From contig NZ_CP061800.1 of NCBI RefSeq assembly GCF_017377395.1, positions 2,356,001 through 2,420,000 of the forward strand: a DNA stretch of 64,000 bases, read 5' to 3'. This DNA is from Desulfonema magnum (lineage in GTDB: Bacteria; Desulfobacterota; Desulfobacteria; Desulfobacterales; 4be13). Numbering within the stretch: the stretch's first letter is position 1; each line of letters starts with the position of its first letter. Of the stretch, positions 11,389 through 58,982 are shown one piece after another. The position numbers and the translations under genes are program-made. The notes under the pieces are model-generated. The model was not told the origin of the DNA. It saw only the letters and a program-made list of their open reading frames with translations, and made no database searches.

Positions 11389-12299
11389 AGTCCCGTAGGG
11401 GCGGCATATTTGTAGCATAAGAGAATTTGCCTCCTTTCCGAGTCCCGTAGGGACGGCATATCCGGCTTGGAAACACGGAGGGATGTCATTGCTACAAAGA
11501 TGCCGTCCTCACGGGACTTGGGAACACGGGGCATATCATTCCTACAAATATGCCGTCCCCACGGGACTCACAAACACGGGGGGATCTCATTTGCTACAAA
11601 TATGCCGTCCCTACGGGACTCACAAACACGGGGGGATCTCATTTGCTACAAATATGCCGTCCCTACGGGACTCGCAAACACGGGGGAATCTCATTTGCTA
11701 CAAATATGCCGTCCCCACGGGACTCGCAAACACGGGGGAATCTCATTTGCTACAAATATGCCGTCCCTACGGGACTCGCAAACACGGGGGGATCTCATTT
11801 GCTACAAATATGCCGTCCCTACGGGACTCGCAAACACGGGGGAATCTCATTTGCTACAAATATGCCGTCCCTACGGGACTCGCAAACACGGGGGAATCTC
11901 ATTTGCTACAAATATGCCGTCCCCACGGGACTCGCAAACACGGGGGAATCTCATTTGCTACAAATATGCCGTCCCTACGGGACTCGCAAACACGGGGGGA
12001 TCTCATTTGCTACAAATATGCCGTCCCTACGGGACTCGCAAACACGGGGGAATCTCATTTGCTACAAATATGCCGTCCCTACGGGACTCGCAAACACGGG
12101 GGAATCTCATTTGCTACAAATATGCCGTCCCTACGGGACTCGCAAACACGGGGGGAATGTCATTGCTATAAATATGCCGTCCCTACGGGACTCGCAAACA
12201 CGGGGGAATCTCATTTGCTACAAATATGCCGTCCTCACGGGACTCGCAAACACGGGGGAATGTCATTTGCTACAAATATGCCGTCCCCACGGGACTTTT
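11389..12299. repeat. 52-bp tandem array, 16 direct copies plus two inverted leaders
   Basis: Unit: aaacacgggggaatctcatt, tgctacaaatatgccgtccc, tacgggactcgc (52 bp). The phrase atgccgtcc falls at 11500, 11550, 11602 and then every 52 bp to 12278. Two reverse-orientation copies (gtcccgtaggggcggcatat) precede at 11389-11460, so the array starts with a head-to-head hairpin. Each unit has the small palindrome GTCCCTACGGGAC with T/C changes at one site. As 52 is not a multiple of 3, all three frames stay open and give false ORFs. Confidence 0.95.
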
Positions 12300-12382: not shown

Positions 12383-12970
12383 ATGAAACCTATGGCAGCA
12401 AATACACTGTATAACCCAGAATCATCTGAAGCCCCGCCTCTGTTCAGCGGCGAAGAGCTGTTTGATATGGGCGACATTGGACGAACTGAGCTGGTTGGAG
12501 GAGAATTAATTCGTATGTCCCCTACAGGATATCCCCACGGTATTGCAGAAGCTAAAATCGCTCACACACTCAGTTTGTTTGTTGACCAGCATAAACTTGG
12601 TCATGTATTAGTTGGCGAAGTGGGGATTTATATCCGTCGTAATCCGGACACAATTCGAGGCGCTGATGTGATTTATATCTCGGCAGAACGTCTCTCGCAG
12701 GCGAAATCAAAAAGTTATCTTGATGTCGCGCCGGAGTTAGTAGTGGAAGTTCTCTCTCCCGGGGACAGATGGAGCGATGTCACTGACAAAATAGACGAAT
12801 ATTTCTCTATCGGCGTTCAGGTCGTATGGATTGCTGACCCCAGACAGAGGCAAATATTTGAGTATCGCTCTCCGACCCAGGTGAAACGTTTCAAGGCTGA
12901 TGAAACATTATCAGGAGGAGACATCTTGCCCGGATTTGAGATTTCAGTAGCAACATTGTTTGAAACTTGA
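12383..12970 (+). CDS. Uma2-family (DUF820) putative nuclease
   Basis: 195 aa from ATG 12383 (an in-frame GTG at 12359 is less likely). Uma2 core: ELVGGELIRMSPTGYPHG, RGADVIYISAERL, the central strand APELVVEVLSPGDRWSD, then DEYFSIGVQVVWIADPRQRQI and a closing GFEISVATLF. It is in the same orientation as the aro genes and lies between aroK and aroC, separated from them by a 52-bp array upstream and a 7-bp minisatellite downstream. It is therefore an insertion into an otherwise ordinary aro operon. Its last codons (TTT GAA ACT TGA) are already the first unit of the downstream GAAACTT repeat. Confidence 0.85.
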   Translation: MKPMAANTLYNPESSEAPPLFSGEELFDMGDIGRTELVGGELIRMSPTGYPHGIAEAKIAHTLSLFVDQHKLGHVLVGEVGIYIRRNPDTIRGADVIYISAERLSQAKSKSYLDVAPELVVEVLSPGDRWSDVTDKIDEYFSIGVQVVWIADPRQRQIFEYRSPTQVKRFKADETLSGGDILPGFEISVATLFET

Positions 12971-13150
12971 AACTTGAAACTTGAAACTTGAAACTTGAAA
13001 CTTGAAACTCGAAACTTGAAACTCGAAACTTGAAACTCGAAACTTGAGACTCGAAACTTGAAACTCGAAACTTGAGACTCGAAACTTGAAACTCGAAACT
13101 TGAAACTCGAAACTTGAGACTCGAAACTTGAAACTTGAAACTTGAAACTC
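12962..13150. repeat. Heptanucleotide minisatellite (GAAACTT/GAAACTC)
   Basis: About 27 head-to-tail 7-mers, gaaactt alternating irregularly with gaaactc and gagactc. It begins inside the Uma2 stop codon and ends about 30 bp before aroC, whose ribosome site (cagaggag) lies outside it. Confidence 0.95.
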
Positions 13151-13181
13151 GGCTCAAGTTTTAATTTTCAGAGGAGAAATA

Positions 13182-27294: not shown

Positions 27295-27327
27295 TCTACT
27301 ACTTTATCAAGTTTGATTTTAGGAGTT

Positions 27328-27482
27328 GAACAGGCTTTGCTAAAATTTCATTTTAGCACTCCGGAGAATACCAACTCTGAACAGGCTTTGCTAAAATTTC
27401 ATTTTAGCACTCCGGAGAATACCAACTCTGAACAGGCTTTGCTAAAATTTCATTTTAGCACTCCGGAGAATACCAACTCTGT
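27328..27482. repeat. Three 51-bp units with GCTAAAATTTCATTTTAGC stem
   Basis: Unit: aacaggctttgctaaaattt, cattttagcactccggagaa, taccaactctg (51 bp, three copies). It ends in the GCACTCCGG frame shared with other hairpin families. Being 17 codons long, it keeps frames open. Confidence 0.93.
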
Positions 27483-36667: not shown

Positions 36668-37287
36668 CAGCGGATCAAAAATTTGCACCAATCATCCATC
36701 CATCCGGAGTGCAAAAATTAAGCGTAGCGGTTTTTTGCACTGTATGTTTAAACAATTCTGGTGGAATGCAAAAAATCGCTTCGCTTAATTTTTGCACTCC
36801 GGAAGCTAAGAATGCAAAAAATCGCTTCGCTTAATTTTTGCACTCCGGAAGCTAAGGATGCAAAAAATCGCTTCGCTTAATTTTTGCACTCCGGAAATTG
36901 GGTGAAATGCAAAAAATCGCTTCGCTTAATTTTTGCACTCCGGAAGCTAAGAATGCAAAAAATCGCTTCGCTTAATTTTTGCACTCCGGAAGCTAAGGAT
37001 GCAAAAAATCGCTTCGCTTAATTTTTGCACTCCGGAAGCTAAGAATGCAAAAAATCGCTTCGCTTAATTTTTGCACTCCGGAAGCTAAGAATGCAAAAAA
37101 TCGCTTCGCTTAATTTTTGCACTCCGGAAATTGGGTGAAATGCAAAAAATCGCTTCGCTTAATTTTTGCACTCCGGAAGCTAAGGATGCAAAAAATCGCT
37201 TCGCTTAATTTTTGCACTCCGGAAGCTAAGGATGCAAAAAATCGCTTCGCTTAATTTTTGCACTCCGGAAAAGCTTTTGATCTGCTG
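36668..37287. mobile_element. CAGCAGATC-ended cassette carrying an 11-copy hairpin array
   Basis: The left end cagcggatcaaaaatttgc (36668) and right end aagcttttgatctgctg (37271-37287) are inverted repeats of the same type as 55603-55755. The interior is almost wholly a 46-bp tandem array. The cassette sits exactly between the acyl-CoA dehydrogenase stop and the 2Fe-2S subunit start. Confidence 0.5.
36767..37268. repeat. 46-49-bp tandem array, 11 copies
   Basis: Copies begin (tgcaaaaaatcgc) at 36767, 36813, 36859, 36908, 36954, 37000, 37046, 37092, 37141, 37187 and 37233. Unit: tgcaaaaaatcgcttcgctt, aatttttgcactccggaagc, taagaa. Every block of three to five is broken by a 49-bp variant (ccggaaattgggtgaaa), a sign of block duplication. 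Ends in the GCACTCCGG frame. Confidence 0.95.
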
Positions 37288-51871: not shown

Positions 51872-53446
51872 CTATCTGTCATCTGGATATGCATCATTAA
51901 TGGCAAGAAATTCGTCTAAGTTCTCCAGAAATAAATCCACAAGGTGCGCGTCAAAATGTTTTCCCCGCTCTTCCTTAAAAAGCGCCAAAATACGATCAAG
52001 TTCCCAGGCTTTTTTATAAATCCGGTCATGAAACAGCGCGTCAAACACGTCTATAATTTCCACAATTCGGACAAACACATGGATATCATCTTTTTTCAGT
52101 CCCTGGGGATACCCGTTCCCATCGCACCGTTCATGATGCTGAAGGGCAATGAACGCCGCAGTTTTCATGATTCTTCTGTTTGAATTTTTGAGAATATTGT
52201 ACCCGATAAGCGTATGGGTCTTTATCAGTTCAAATTCCTCTGATGTCAGACGGCCGGGCTTCAGCAAAACTGAATCCGGAATGCCGATCTTTCCGACATC
52301 GTGCATTGGCGCGGCCAGCCGCAGAATCTCCGCTTCCTCTTCATCAATGCCAGCTTTCAAGGCAAGGACGCGGGACATTTCCGCGACACGCAGGACATGA
52401 TTGGCTGTTTCTTTTGAGCGGTTCTCAACCACCTCCCCCAATGTGGTGATAACCTCCTTCTGCGTATCAACGATCTCCTGATTAAGATAAATATTGTCAA
52501 GGGCGATGATGACATTGTGTGCGAATATCTGAATCAGGCGTTTGTCCAATTCATCCAGGTTATGAGGACTTTCCAGATAAATCAGGTTGTCCGAACCGAT
52601 ACTGCTCGAAAAATATCCTGTGTAGGCATTGTCAGAAAAAACACTTTGCTTTTGTTCAATGGCACATGTCAAATCCCGGGCAACTGCTTTCGGAACCGCT
52701 TTCAAAACAGGAGTACGAACATGCTCGCTGAATGATCCGATGGCCGAAATGATAATAAATTCTCCTTTTTCCTGAGTGGCGACAAAAGCTGATATCCGGG
52801 AGCGAAGCAAATCGTCATCAGGGTGCAGAATGGACGTCAGCCAAGTCAGCACACCGGCCGTGAACATTCGGAAGGACTGAGGTTTGAAGATATTCGCAGA
52901 TGCCTCAATGATTTCCTCAAGCCCCTGCCGGTTCTTTTCAATGGTCTTCAAATCCCTGTATGAACGAATTGCGGTGGTGACACTGCTGAAAAGCTTTTTC
53001 GCGGTCAGTTCTGTTTTCTGTTTATAATCATTAATATCATATTCCGTGATCACTTTTCTTTCCGGGGCCTGACCCGGATGTCCTGTGCGAAGAATGATGC
53101 GAACAAAAGAATTTTTCAATTCCTTCCGAATGTATTCAACCACATCAAGGCCGGAATGTTCGGTTTCCATGACCACATCAAGCAGGATCACGGATGTGTC
53201 TGAATTCTCACGGATCAGTTTTTTTGCTTCTTCACCGGAATACGCACTCAGATAAGTCAGTTCCCTGTCTTCAAATGTAAAATCTTCAAGCGCCAGCCGG
53301 GTAATATCATGAATCTCCTCCTCGTCATCTACGATCATGAGCTTCCATGTTTCGCCATCTGTCACGGTAACTTTATCCGGAGTCTCCTCTGCAAAAAGAA
53401 TATCATCATCATCAAAGAATGTCTCATTATTTTTTTGCGACATCAT
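51872..53446 (-). CDS. Response regulator with DUF3369 and HD-GYP domains
   Basis: 524 aa. The receiver domain (about 35-160) carries the acidic pair VDDEEE and the phospho-acceptor Asp in VILLDVVME. A GAF-like DUF3369 domain follows (about 170-320). The HD-GYP domain has the HD pair APMHDVGKIGIPD and the signature HHERCDGNGYPQGL, so a c-di-GMP phosphodiesterase activity is expected. Its start overlaps the end of the sensor kinase gene by 20 bp, marking a cognate pair. Confidence 0.94.
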   Translation of the reverse strand: MMSQKNNETFFDDDDILFAEETPDKVTVTDGETWKLMIVDDEEEIHDITRLALEDFTFEDRELTYLSAYSGEEAKKLIRENSDTSVILLDVVMETEHSGLDVVEYIRKELKNSFVRIILRTGHPGQAPERKVITEYDINDYKQKTELTAKKLFSSVTTAIRSYRDLKTIEKNRQGLEEIIEASANIFKPQSFRMFTAGVLTWLTSILHPDDDLLRSRISAFVATQEKGEFIIISAIGSFSEHVRTPVLKAVPKAVARDLTCAIEQKQSVFSDNAYTGYFSSSIGSDNLIYLESPHNLDELDKRLIQIFAHNVIIALDNIYLNQEIVDTQKEVITTLGEVVENRSKETANHVLRVAEMSRVLALKAGIDEEEAEILRLAAPMHDVGKIGIPDSVLLKPGRLTSEEFELIKTHTLIGYNILKNSNRRIMKTAAFIALQHHERCDGNGYPQGLKKDDIHVFVRIVEIIDVFDALFHDRIYKKAWELDRILALFKEERGKHFDAHLVDLFLENLDEFLAINDAYPDDR

Positions 53447-55592
53447 TCTCCTCCTCCAACTGGATTCTTATAAAAAAATCAGTCCCTTTTCCAGGAATAC
53501 TTGAGCATTCGATTTGCCCGTTCAAGGTTTGTGTCACCAGGTTATACACGATGTGCATTCCCAGACCGGTTCCGCCCCTGGCCCGTTTGGTGGTGAAAAA
53601 CGGATCAAATATTTTTCTGATATGTTCCTCATCCATGCCTTTTCCGTTGTCACTGTATCGGAAGTGAAGCATATCCTCTTGTTTTGACACGCTGATCTGA
53701 ATATTTCCCTGTTCGATATCTTCAAAACCGTGAACCAGAGAATTCACCACCATGTTGGTGATAATTTGCATAAACACCCCCGGATAACTGTAAAGGAAAA
53801 GATCATCCGGACAGGCGACAGAGATGGTGTGTCCTGTCCGCTTATATCCCGGCCAGAGGCTTAACAGCACCTCATCTATATATTTTTTGAATCTGAACCG
53901 TCTTTTTTCCTCGACAGACTGATCCACCGCCACCTGTTTGAAGCTCTGGATCAGTTCAGAGGCTCTCTCCAGATTTGACAATATGGAGGTCGAGGACTGT
54001 CTGGCCATTTTAATGTATTTTTCCAAGTCTGAACGTTTGAGCTGACCTGATGAATAAGCCCGGGCCATCTCACTGGTTTTTTCCTCCAACAGAGAAGCCG
54101 CAGTCACACCGATGCCGACAGGGGTATTAATTTCATGGGCCACTCCTGCGACAAGATTACCCAGGGCAGCCATTTTGCCGGACTGAATCAGCTGATTCTG
54201 GGTTCTGTGCAGCTCTTCCAGCGATTCCCGTAATGCGAGATTGGCTTTTTGCAGTTCTCCGGTTCTTTCCTCCACCAGTCTGTCCAGATTATCAATCTGA
54301 TTTTTGAGATTGAGCCGCATTTTATTGAAATTTTTCGCCAAAAGGACAATCTCAACAGACGCGTTTTTTTCAACCACAGGTTCGACTTCAAGGTCTCCGG
54401 AAGCGATTTTTATGGCCGCGTGAGAGAGCCGGGTTATGGGGTCGCTGAATTTACGGGATACAAAAATGACAACAGCAACAGCACTCAGCAGTGCGAACAA
54501 GGTGATGAAGATGGTCTGCTGTTCAATATTGCCGATACGCTTCTTAATTTCCAGGGAAGTTTTTCTTGCCTCAACTGCCCTTTCGTGAACCGCCCCTGCA
54601 AGGGATCTGACAACTAACGAGCTTTGGGAAATTTTTTCCCGCCATATGAGAACATGGAGATTCAGTATCCCTCCCAGCATTTTATGTGATACAATATGAT
54701 AGTCCGCCAGCCGGGGATGAAAATCATCAAATATTGTTCCGATCATCGCGGGATCCGTATGAGCGAGAATAACTTTCTCTGAGTCGGTAAGAATAATCTG
54801 CCCATGAAAATCAGAGTCCGGAGTGATAATAAAACCGGTCAGTTGTCTGACTGTCATGACCAGTCTGAGATAACCCGAAGTGATTCTGTCACGCGGCGTG
54901 TTTTTCAGGGATTTGTGTCCGAGCGGACAGGTCAGAGACACGACCGATTCGGGCTGAAAATGATCAGAAACGGTTTCAAAGCAGATCATTGTATGAATAA
55001 ACGGTTCTTTGTCATTCACCCGGGCCTGAAACCATTCAGCGCCGGATTTATCTTTCATTGTTTCGGAAAGGGGAGAGATGTCAGAATCCGGAGGAGGGAT
55101 TTTCGGGACGGGTTCCGTAACCGCACACAGCAACTCCTGTCCTGCGGTGTCCAATATACTGATTTCCAAAAGGTTGTAATTCCTGATGACATTTGCAAAC
55201 AAGGATTTCAACTGGACTGATATTTGTTTCCTCTCTTCTGTATCCGCCCTTATATAAGATTTTACCAAATCTGCGCCGGCAAGGGTTGTGGCAATTTTTT
55301 TCAAATTGGATACCTGAAGTTCAATATTCTGTCTGATATGGCGGCTGAAAAATCTGAAATCCAACAATGTCTTACTTTCAATAACTGAGCTGATCTTGTC
55401 CTCTGCAAGACTTACGGAGGATTGTAACTGTTCGATGCTTGCGGAGAGTTTTTCAGACTCTCTGAACATGGACCGGGAATTGTAAATTGCCAGATAGCCC
55501 GTGACAGCTATGGGAATGACAATCAGAGGGATAAAAAACATCAGAAGTTTTGAGCGGATATTCATTTGCATGGAAATCTTTTTTGCTCGCAC
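53427..55592 (-). CDS. Membrane sensor histidine kinase
   Basis: 721 aa. Membrane helix 1 (about 13-33: LLMFFIPLIVIPIAVTGYLA), a large periplasmic Cache-like sensor, then helix 2 (about 355-375), a HAMP domain (DPITRLSHAAIKIASGDLEV) and a coiled coil. The kinase core has the H-box GVAHEINTPVG, N-box ITNMVVNSLVHGF, and ATP lid motifs DNGKGM, FDPFFTTKR and GGTGLGMHIV. It should phosphorylate the HD-GYP regulator encoded just downstream. GTG 55592 is the longest start; ATG 55571 or ATG 55565 (MNIRSKLLMFF) are as likely, since no clear ribosome site distinguishes them. A MITE-like element sits about 10-40 bp upstream. Confidence 0.93.
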   Translation of the reverse strand: MRAKKISMQMNIRSKLLMFFIPLIVIPIAVTGYLAIYNSRSMFRESEKLSASIEQLQSSVSLAEDKISSVIESKTLLDFRFFSRHIRQNIELQVSNLKKIATTLAGADLVKSYIRADTEERKQISVQLKSLFANVIRNYNLLEISILDTAGQELLCAVTEPVPKIPPPDSDISPLSETMKDKSGAEWFQARVNDKEPFIHTMICFETVSDHFQPESVVSLTCPLGHKSLKNTPRDRITSGYLRLVMTVRQLTGFIITPDSDFHGQIILTDSEKVILAHTDPAMIGTIFDDFHPRLADYHIVSHKMLGGILNLHVLIWREKISQSSLVVRSLAGAVHERAVEARKTSLEIKKRIGNIEQQTIFITLFALLSAVAVVIFVSRKFSDPITRLSHAAIKIASGDLEVEPVVEKNASVEIVLLAKNFNKMRLNLKNQIDNLDRLVEERTGELQKANLALRESLEELHRTQNQLIQSGKMAALGNLVAGVAHEINTPVGIGVTAASLLEEKTSEMARAYSSGQLKRSDLEKYIKMARQSSTSILSNLERASELIQSFKQVAVDQSVEEKRRFRFKKYIDEVLLSLWPGYKRTGHTISVACPDDLFLYSYPGVFMQIITNMVVNSLVHGFEDIEQGNIQISVSKQEDMLHFRYSDNGKGMDEEHIRKIFDPFFTTKRARGGTGLGMHIVYNLVTQTLNGQIECSSIPGKGTDFFIRIQLEEENDVAKK

Positions 55593-55602
55593 AGGTAAAA
55601 TT

Positions 55603-55755
55603 CAGCAGATTGAAAAGTTTCCGGACTGTGTGCGGGACTGCAAAGAAACCCGGCTTTTTTCCCGGACGGGGACCCTCCCCGTCCGGAAAAAGCCGGGTTT
55701 CTCCCACGTCCGTCGTGCCCGCTCTGTGACAGCCCGAAAATTTTTTGATCTGCTG
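55603..55755. mobile_element. Compact MITE-like CAGCAGAT element
   Basis: 153 bp with inverted ends cagcagattgaaaagtttcc and complement of tttttgatctgctg. The interior stem aaacccggcttttttcccgg/ccggaaaaagccgggttt flanks gacggggaccctccccgtc. No ORF, so it would need transposase from elsewhere. Flanked by TT and AA. Confidence 0.65.
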
Positions 55756-55977
55756 AAATTAGCAATTTTTTTTGAAAAGCTCTGATTTTTTATATTTGTC
55801 AAAAGGTTAGAAAGCTTAATTCTTTCAAAAGAAGAAAAAAATCCTTACGATAAATATATATTATTATCCCAAATTGACAACTGATACAAGAAAAAAATCA
55901 GATGCTCCCCGGGATCAGAATCCTGAGTAATACATCTGCATGTCACAAAATTTGCTAATGTCACCGGTGAATTATAA
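55756..55977. other. AT-rich spacer
   Basis: No gene or clear structure seen; upstream of the sensor kinase element and next to the repeat block. Confidence 0.4.
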
Positions 55978-56089
55978 GGGGCCAGGGGTCAGGGGCCAGG
56001 GGTCAGGGGCCAGGGGCCAGGGGTCAGGGGTCAGGGGCCAGGGGCCAGGGGTCAGGGGTCAGGGGCCAGGGGCCAGGGGTCAGGGGTCA
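55978..56089. repeat. GGGGCCAGGGGTCA minisatellite
   Basis: Irregular mix of ggggccagg and ggggtcagg units, about 14 copies, one strand purine-rich. Confidence 0.93.
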
Positions 56090-56133
56090 ATGCTGTTGAC
56101 TTAATTAAGACTGAACAGGTTTTCCGGTGTTCT

Positions 56134-58428
56134 CTCCGGAGTGCGAAAAATGCTTTTTCGCAGGCGCAAAAATAAAATTTTTGCACTCCGGATCCGCCCG
56201 GAACTTTCTCCGGAGTGCGAAAAATGCTTTTTCGCAATTGCAAAAATAAAATTTTTGCACTCCGGATCCGCCCGGAATTTTCTCCGGAGTGCGAAAAATG
56301 CTTTTTCGCAGGCGCAAAAATAAAATTTTTGCACTCCGGATCCGCCCGGAACTTTCTCCGGAGTGCGAAAAATGCTTTTTCGCAATTGCAAAAATAAAAT
56401 TTTTGCACTCCGGATCCGCCCGGAACTTTCTCCGGAGTGCGAAAAATGCTTTTTCGCAATTGCAAAAATAAAATTTTTGCACTCCGGATCCGCCCGGAAC
56501 TTTCTCCGGAGTGCGAAAAATGCTTTTTCGCAATTGCAAAAATAAAATTTTTGCACTCCGGATCCGCCCGGAACTTTCTCCGGAGTGCGAAAAATGCTTT
56601 TTCGCAGGCGCAAAAATAAAATTTTTGCACTCCGGATCCGCCCGGAACTTTCTCCGGAGTGCGAAAAATGCTTTTTCGCAGGCGCAAAAATAAAATTTTT
56701 GCACTCCGGATCCGCCCGGAACTTTCTCCGGAGTGCGAAAAATGCTTTTTCGCAATTGCAAAAATAAAATTTTTGCACTCCGGATCCGCCCGGAACTTTC
56801 TCCGGAGTGCGAAAAATGCTTTTTCGCAATTGCAAAAATAAAATTTTTGCACTCCGGATCCGCCCGGAACTTTCTCCGGAGTGCGAAAAATGCTTTTTCG
56901 CAATTGCAAAAATAAAATTTTTGCACTCCGGATCCGCCCGGAACTTTCTCCGGAGTGCGAAAAATGCTTTTTCGCAATTGCAAAAATAAAATTTTTGCAC
57001 TCCGGATCCGCCCGGAACTTTCTCCGGAGTGCGAAAAATGCTTTTTCGCAATTGCAAAAATAAAATTTTTGCACTCCGGATCCGCCCGGAACTTTCTCCG
57101 GAGTGCGAAAAATGCTTTTTCGCAATTGCAAAAATAAAATTTTTGCACTCCGGATCCGCCCGGAACTTTCTCCGGAGTGCGAAAAATGCTTTTTCGCAGG
57201 CGCAAAAATAAAATTTTTGCACTCCGGATCCGCCCGGAACTTTCTCCGGAGTGCGAAAAATGCTTTTTCGCAATTGCAAAAATAAAATTTTTGCACTCCG
57301 GATCCGCCCGGAACTTTCTCCGGAGTGCGAAAAATGCTTTTTCGCAATTGCAAAAATAAAATTTTTGCACTCCGGATCCGCCCGGAACTTTCTCCGGAGT
57401 GCGAAAAATGCTTTTTCGCAATTGCAAAAATAAAATTTTTGCACTCCGGATCCGCCCGGAACTTTCTCCGGAGTGCGAAAAATGCTTTTTCGCAATTGCA
57501 AAAATAAAATTTTTGCACTCCGGATCCGCCCGGAACTTTCTCCGGAGTGCGAAAAATGCTTTTTCGCAATTGCAAAAATAAAATTTTTGCACTCCGGATC
57601 CGCCCGGAACTTTCTCCGGAGTGCGAAAAATGCTTTTTCGCAATTGCAAAAATAAAATTTTTGCACTCCGGATCCGCCCGGAACTTTCTCCGGAGTGCGA
57701 AAAATGCTTTTTCGCAATTGCAAAAATAAAATTTTTGCACTCCGGATCCGCCCGGAACTTTCTCCGGAGTGCGAAAAATGCTTTTTCGCAATTGCAAAAA
57801 TAAAATTTTTGCACTCCGGATCCGCCCGGAACTTTCTCCGGAGTGCGAAAAATGCTTTTTCGCAGGCGCAAAAATAAAATTTTTGCACTCCGGATCCGCC
57901 CGGAATTTTTTCCGGAGTGCGAAAAATGCTTTTTCGCAGGCGCAAAAATAAAATTTTTGCACTCCGGATCCGCCCGGAACTTTCTCCGGAGTGCGAAAAA
58001 TGCTTTTTCGCAATTGCAAAAATAAAATTTTTGCACTCCGGATCCGCCCGGAACTTTCTCCGGAGTGCGAAAAATGCTTTTTCGCAGGCGCAAAAATAAA
58101 ATTTTTGCACTCCGGATCCGCCCGGAATTTTTTCCGGAGTGCGAAAAATGCTTTTTCGCAGGCGCAAAAATAAAATTTTTGCACTCCGGATCCGCCCGGA
58201 ACTTTCTCCGGAGTGCGAAAAATGCTTTTTCGCAATTGCAAAAATAAAATTTTTGCACTCCGGATCCGCCCGGAACTTTCTCCGGAGTGCGAAAAATGCT
58301 TTTTCGCAATTGCAAAAATAAAATTTTTGCACTCCGGATCCGCCCGGAACTTTCTCCGGAGTGCGAAAAATGCTTTTTCGCAATTGCAAAAATAAAATTT
58401 TTGCACTCCGGATCCGCCCGGAACTTTC
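56134..58428. repeat. 74-bp satellite array, 31 copies, nested palindromes
   Basis: Unit: ccggagtgcgaaaaatgctt, tttcgcaattgcaaaaataa, aatttttgcactccggatcc, gcccggaactttct. It nests two hairpins (gcgaaaaatgctttttcgc and gcaaaaataaaatttttgc) inside the CCGGAGTGC/GCACTCCGG frame. One site is either aattgc or aggcgc. Copies 1, 3, 7, 8, 15, 24, 25, 27 and 28 have aggcgc, the rest aattgc; linkers of copies 2, 24 and 27 read ggaatttt. The period is 74 bp (2 mod 3), so all frames on both strands stay open and yield false proteins of over 700 codons. Confidence 0.98.
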
Positions 58429-58580
58429 TAAGATATGATTGTGCAAAGTGTTTCTTGACATTATGAGTGACAGGTATTATGTATCATTTTATTATTAATA
58501 TGATACCAGTATTTTTGTATATTCAGTAATTTTGAAACGCTTCTGCGGGACTGAAACTGTCCTTAAAAGAAAGGAATAAA

Positions 58581-58982
58581 ATGACACTTCAGGAACAAAT
58601 TAAAAAGGATTTGACAGCTGCAATTAAAGAAAAAGATGAAGAAAAGAAAGCAACAATTCGCGTGATCATGGGAGAATTCGGAAGATCAGATAAAAAAGAA
58701 ATTCCAGATGATGACGTTGTGAAGATTTTGAAAAAATTAGTTAAATCCGAAAAAGAAGTGCTGGAAAGAAAAGGGGATGCTGCCGGAGATTCCCAATTCA
58801 TCAGAATTATAGAGAATTATTTGCCTAAGATGGCCGGGGAAGAAGAAATTGCAGACTGGATTAAAGAAAATGTTGATTTCTCAAAATTTAAAAATAAGAT
58901 GCAGGCCATGGGGTTAATTATGAAGCATTTCGGTTCCGCGGCAGATGGTAATACTGTCAAAAGTGTCTTACAAAAATTTTAA
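58581..58982 (+). CDS. YqeY-like GatB/YqeY domain protein
   Basis: 133 aa, shorter than the usual about 147. The YqeY fold is clear: helix MTLQEQIKKDLTAAIKEKD, KATIRVIMGEFGRSDK, a helix pair with KSEKEVLERKGD, then LPKMAGEEEIADWI and KNKMQAMGLIMKHFG, ending TVKSVLQKF. This family shares the tail domain of GatB and may act on tRNA-dependent amidation; its role is not proven. A strong aaaggaat site precedes the ATG. Confidence 0.88.
   Translation: MTLQEQIKKDLTAAIKEKDEEKKATIRVIMGEFGRSDKKEIPDDDVVKILKKLVKSEKEVLERKGDAAGDSQFIRIIENYLPKMAGEEEIADWIKENVDFSKFKNKMQAMGLIMKHFGSAADGNTVKSVLQKF

Follow-up and report, generated by a model that had tools for sequence, protein, structure and literature searches.

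At issue in the 8.03-Mb, single-contig genome of Desulfonema magnum is an intergenic run of 31 nearly identical 74-bp palindromic units, which raises the question of what such an array is, how it was assembled, and whether its persistence calls for a host function. The window analysed is the 64,000-bp stretch of contig NZ_CP061800.1 from position 2,356,001 to 2,420,000, and coordinates refer to it unless stated otherwise. We consider it highly probable that the array arose by tandem amplification of a REPIN-type doublet, a pair of inverted REP hairpins with a GGAG tag, residing in a non-autonomous MITE of the IS4 subgroup, and that no host function is required.

Anatomy of the tandem array

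Unit parsing from position 56134 gave 31 units at a spacing of exactly 74 bp throughout, in agreement with the TRF call (56133-58429; period 74; 31.0 copies; 98% matches; score 4370), and thus the copy number and unit length given in an earlier note on this DNA are real. The features of the array are as follows:

56134..58427, + strand: tandem array, 31 units x 74 bp (parsing, TRF)
57836..58057, + strand: 3-unit block, first copy (units 24-26), with private variants common to units 27-29
58058..58279, + strand: 3-unit block, second copy (units 27-29), with private variants common to units 24-26

Each unit is a REP doublet with the architecture of a REPIN or BIME module, an identity (a doublet inside a MITE) that the earlier reading overlooked. 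The inverted REP pair consists of TCCGGAGTGC-GAAAAAtgcTTTTTC-GC, a spacer (AATT or AGGC) and GCAAAAATAAAATTTTTGC-ACTCCGGA, followed by the MITE inner arm TCCGCCCGGAACTTT; TCCGGAGTGC opens each of the two inverted hairpins, which face each other. REP orientation alternates (+-+-...) across the whole array, which is therefore made up of several head-to-tail modules of alternating REPs, as in BIME-2. E. coli BIME-2 arrays are shorter than this 31-unit array.

As single-stranded DNA, the unit is predicted to fold into an outer stem plus two hairpins (-21.7 kcal/mol; z -6.1), consistent with its earlier description as palindromic. The hairpin arms span about 8-9 bp, so that the units are hairpin pairs and not the long perfect palindromes that had been proposed. 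Instability in bacteria is a property of long perfect palindromes, from which such short interrupted ones differ, and the argument from expected instability is correspondingly weak.

Variation among the 31 units is restricted to columns 1, 30-32 and 71. Columns 30-32 are fully linked and define two unit types, AATT (22 units) and AGGC (9 units), both recognised previously; their order along the array (G A G A A A G G, six A, G, eight A, G G A G G A A A) matches the earlier string letter for letter. The two-state site had been interpreted as a compensatory change that keeps a stem paired. It is the 4-nt spacer between the hairpins, which is unpaired in the predicted fold, and self-complementarity of the unit falls from 79% (AATT) to 71% (AGGC); thus, the change is not compensatory. 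The linker variant GGAATTTT was located in copies 2, 24 and 27, as reported before, and a private first-base T is common to copies 25 and 28. Based on the sharing of these variants by units 24/27 and 25/28, the 222-bp duplication of block 24-26 as 27-29, also claimed earlier, is secure. The A and G types are not significantly clustered along the array (12 runs; runs test, P 0.27), which indicates that block duplication alone is insufficient to explain their order. The near identity of this 2.3-kb array might point to an assembly artefact or a collapsed repeat; however, the variants are ordered and block-structured, and several other arrays differ in both units and junctions, which makes such an error very improbable.

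All three minus-strand frames are open across the array (736 to 786 aa), as would be expected of a tandem-repeat protein; however, this is because the minus strand of the unit lacks TAA, TAG and TGA and its 74-bp length is not divisible by 3. The Pfam DUF3797 match spans 16 repeated residues, with no stretch passing alone, and the unit recurs in dispersed non-coding MITEs, so that the probability of a coding array is negligible. A CRISPR array was also rejected, given that repetition extends over the full 74 bp, in which just five columns vary, and leaves no unique spacers, as was a known structured RNA, the window's only Rfam match at gathering score being one tRNA. A separate 68-bp period array of GGGATTGAAAC-like repeats (L109 834-2318) is probably a CRISPR array.

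GGAG-tagged REPs across the genome

The array had been regarded as a singular satellite, whereas related arrays and single copies occur genome-wide. The sequence TGCACTCCGGA is present at 882 sites across the genome (reversed control, 0). In a census sample of 80 evenly spaced 20-kb pieces (1.6 Mb), CGGAG was the commonest pentamer preceding maximal perfect hairpins (270/3968), and 398 REP hairpins of this kind were distributed over 100 clusters that included singles, inverted pairs and 17 arrays. The same sample contained 21 inverted REP pairs that lack MITE ends, many of which have different stems (e.g., GCCAAACTTGCAGTTTGGC); REP pairs of this kind are also present in genomes G014, G035 and G041. 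Two additional REP arrays were identified in the window, with no MITE ends seen at the first of them:

36764..37270, + strand: second REP array, 46-bp unit x 10.9, GCACTCCGGA tag as in the 74-bp array, different hairpin (TRF)
27327..27481, + strand: third REP array, 51-bp unit x 3, tag as in the 74-bp array, hairpin GCTAAAATTTCATTTTAGC (TRF)

These elements have the conserved short tag at the 5' foot of a hairpin and the high copy number that characterise REPs. The tag is CCGGAG(T) and not the canonical GTAG/GTGG, and thus the array REPs are REPIN-like in their working yet lie outside the GTAG superfamily; this departure from GT[AG]G counts against our explanation.

Tandem arrays are abundant genome-wide; those in the window also include a 52-bp unit x 15.9 without a REP tag (11471-12296) and a 14-bp unit, TTGAAACTCGAAAC, x 13.7 (12960-13151).

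Host MITE with IS4-subgroup ends

In dispersed copies, the type of doublet found in the array sits inside a larger MITE of 122 or 133 bp, with CAATRCTGTTGACTTAAG at both ends and two REPs in each copy. The IS4 subgroup is characterised by -AATR--------WTW ends, 10-13-bp target duplications, elements of 1400-1650 bp, and a YREK DDE transposase (PMC2266710). The ends of the dispersed MITEs fit this pattern in inverted orientation, and perfect 11-bp target duplications, within the range for the subgroup, were identified at the copies at 3315868, 6136742, 2025862, 432952 and 7136219. In the window, the left-end stretch aligns with MITE positions 1-118 at 92%, and the array is framed by the following:

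56088..56104, + strand: left TIR bounding the host MITE, CAATGCTGTTGACTTAA (matched exactly when the genome was searched for TIRs; C1:2412088-2412104)
56105..56133, + strand: MITE inner arm on the left, TTAAGACTGAACAGGTTTTCCGGTGTTCT, shared with the dispersed 133-bp copies (flank comparison, alignment)
58428..58441, + strand: putative eroded right MITE end, CTAAGATATGATTG

No right TIR or target duplication is recognisable at the window copy (58428..58441), which is a second point against our explanation. A heptamer array (GGGGCCA/GGGGTCA, about 16 copies; 55977-56089) runs up to the left MITE end.

The exact MITE ends are present in 18/291 genomes of the order. Full IS4-type elements with these ends were found in two relatives (1498 bp, with duplication GGTGTTGTGGG; 1552 bp), and both (L221/L222) encode a PF01609 transposase; the full-element ORF shows the Y-x2-R-x3-E-x6-K motif (YFRRWEVENYYRDEK) expected of an autonomous IS4 YREK relative. 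These autonomous elements fit all traits of the IS4 subgroup (PMC2266710), whereas the D. magnum genome yielded only non-autonomous copies with REP pairs. Its PF01609 copies end differently from the MITE where readable (three copies were outside the comparison), no PF13006 transposase was found in the genome, and the full-element transposase of the relative has no homologue there, so that the D. magnum MITEs look orphaned. That no own-genome transposase matching the MITE ends was found is a third point against our explanation. Among good end pairs in the D. magnum genome, no complete MITE without REPs was seen; long ‘elements’ of 0.8-3.2 kb between MITE ends were discarded, their end matches being poor or self-overlapping. 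Other interiors occur in same-ended MITEs of genomes G038 and G084 and in one of G078. The G078 MITE at L226 1922-2043 combines the same IS4-type ends with a REP doublet whose stems are of another type, which hints at a possible independent second capture of a doublet.

Association with RAYT transposases

Y1 transposase genes in loci L016 and L018 pass the cut-off of the NCBIfam REP-associated tyrosine transposase model (NF047646), and a third such gene (L017) has about 64% identity to these two. The L018 protein is similar to E. coli TnpA-REP of known structure (4ER8; E 1.3e-12), and the alignment places its HUH histidines and its tyrosine opposite those of 4ER8. Its gene is surrounded by direct REP arrays of 37- and 42-bp units, and nine REP units flanking it are the right-hand hairpin of the window array, identical over 27 nt; the host genome therefore has, as expected for REPINs, a RAYT gene flanked by matching REP. 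No tagged REP was identified in the flanks of the G041 RAYT (L160). Close RAYT homologues span Chloroflexi, KSB1, Calditrichaceae, Methylococcales, Thiomargarita and others, and GGAG(T)-tagged hairpins adjoin them in 18/29 loci. Near these homologues, GGAG(T) hairpins make up 60/494 of the hairpins at a distance of 600 bp or less, compared with 11/356 at 1.5-3 kb. Based on this association, we infer that the GGAG doublets would be mobilised by RAYTs.

Published REP tags are GT[AG]G (PMC2817692, PMC6006769) and CGTC (PMC3733652), and the HYH form of the HUH motif has been described for TnpA-Y1 subclass 2.8 (PMC6006769). A GGAG-tagged class was not found in the published REP/RAYT literature, as far as our incomplete coverage reached. 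Tentatively, and with slightly less confidence than doubt, we suggest that GGAG REPs and HYH-motif RAYTs represent a third class of REPs, next to the GTAG and CGTC classes, occurring in several phyla, with doublets that have been captured repeatedly by IS4-type MITEs. If so, the resulting hybrids would be accessible to two unrelated transposition chemistries and capable of growing into satellite arrays of >30 units. The GGAG tag and its RAYT group would also allow the role of the guide tetranucleotide in fixing the cleavage site to be tested.

Formation of the array

In MITE coordinates, the 74-bp unit runs from 44 to 118 and takes in the doublet plus a portion of the right inner arm; at the array join, position 118 meets 44 with a shared stretch of about 3 bp (TCT). 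A longer sister array in another MITE copy (L085 7044-9772; C1:2507045; 77 bp x 35.4) has its junction at 120 to 44, and arrays in other MITE copies have junctions at about 105 to 44 (66 bp x 14), 96 to 17 (81 bp), and 127 to 41. In the L039 array (C1:432952-435883), the unit is the whole 133-bp MITE plus the 11-bp target duplication, with a 144-bp period. Because the junctions differ among arrays in MITE copies, amplification was local and occurred repeatedly after MITE insertion. The L039 array region also contains a 499-aa transposase ORF.

These data are consistent with a series of steps, the first of which would be the spread of CCGGAGTGC-tagged hairpins by RAYTs, both singly and as inverted pairs, as suggested by their association. 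As the MITE anatomy shows, one pair then became part of an IS4-type MITE, presumably by capture, and this MITE was moved by an IS4-family DDE transposase making 11-bp target duplications. The inner doublet, together with part of the MITE arm, was next duplicated head-to-tail, here and, as the junctions demonstrate, separately at other copies. Slippage or unequal exchange may have expanded and homogenised the copies, including the 3-unit block duplication. The two spacer states represent two MITE haplotypes that have been mixed in one array; dispersed MITEs carry AATT, AGGC, AAGC, ATGC, AACT and AAGT spacers, and given that the states occur in dispersed copies, an exchange with another copy, through gene conversion or recombination, is the simplest source of the mixture.

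Alternatively, the RAYT itself may have built the array, for instance through successive strand transfers or rolling-circle copying that inserted the doublet into itself, as opposed to generic slippage or recombination following MITE insertion. This would be in keeping with the direct REP arrays adjoining RAYT genes in this genome (L018) and with the REP tag in 22/111 of the tandem arrays of period at least 20 in the 1.6-Mb sample. However, the other 89/111 lack the tag, which indicates that this genome amplifies tandem DNA in general. Moreover, the 74-bp unit takes in 15 bp of MITE arm (MITE 44-118), the junction differs at each locus, and the array at 432952 repeats an entire MITE with its duplication. 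Construction by the RAYT is therefore unlikely, and we favour amplification of the MITE-borne doublet after insertion.

Relation to known repeat systems

Such a MITE-borne doublet array has counterparts in several described systems. In Pseudomonas fluorescens SBW25, REPINs and their tandem clusters likewise consist of inverted REP doublet units, and the clusters adjoin RAYT genes (Bertels and Rainey, PMC3116915); however, the largest SBW25 cluster has four REPINs, compared with 31 here and about 35 elsewhere in the D. magnum genome, and the D. magnum elements differ in their GGAG tag and in the location of the doublet inside an IS4-type MITE. E. coli BIME-2, associated with TnpA-REP, shares the head-to-tail alternating REPs and a RAYT gene flanked by its own REPs, but has a GTAG tag and no MITE frame (PMC2817692, PMC8266576). 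BrickBuilt of Porphyromonas gingivalis is, like the present array, a tandem array inside a MITE; its repeat is a 23-bp direct repeat, and its description, as far as consulted, mentions neither a REP doublet nor a link to RAYTs nor IS4 ends (PMC4596501). The GTAG and CGTC REP superfamilies (PMC3733652) and the TnpA-Y1 subclasses (PMC6006769) likewise combine a short tag beside a hairpin with high copy number, although the tag here, GGAG(T), belongs to a class that we did not find described. Relative to these known kinds, the D. magnum array stands out by its GGAG (not GT[AG]G) tag, by a REPIN that is carried within an IS4-type MITE, and by its size. It joins three topics that are usually separate, namely RAYT/REPIN doublets, IS4-type MITEs and bacterial satellite arrays, and with ordered variants and many independent junctions in one genome, the origin of tandem REP/BIME arrays becomes testable.

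Flanking genes and the question of function

The array is flanked by two divergent genes:

53427..55592, - strand: histidine kinase gene, divergent from its right-hand neighbour (Pfam HATPase_c 6e-24, HAMP)
58581..58982, + strand: yqeY-like gene (Pfam YqeY 1.6e-16)

The yqeY matches in other genomes come from other families. The position of the array in a roughly 3-kb gap between divergent genes, and the binding of gyrase by E. coli BIME-2 arrays (cited in PMC2817692), would accord with a selected, functional array: a platform for gyrase, IHF, HU or H-NS-type proteins, a chromosome organiser, or a regulator of the neighbouring genes. However, similar arrays and single MITEs are found at many unrelated sites, and the few variants fall in the spacer and linker without compensation. 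The array is also upstream of both neighbours, and is thus ill-suited to stabilising the 3' ends of their mRNAs. We therefore regard a selected function as improbable. The earlier note had attributed persistence of the array to selection, active renewal or special replication tolerance; of these, active renewal is retained, as recent homogenising tandem amplification, whereas neither selection nor special tolerance is supported. There is no need to invoke selection to explain the array, for which selfish-DNA amplification suffices.

Upstream of the histidine kinase gene there is an inverted repeat, AAACCCGGCTTTTTTCCCGGACGGGGA...CCGTCCGGAAAAAGCCGGGTTT (55640-55710), and palindromes related to it (AAACCCGGCTTTTT) form arrays at L091 8688-9973 and L130 16508-17194.
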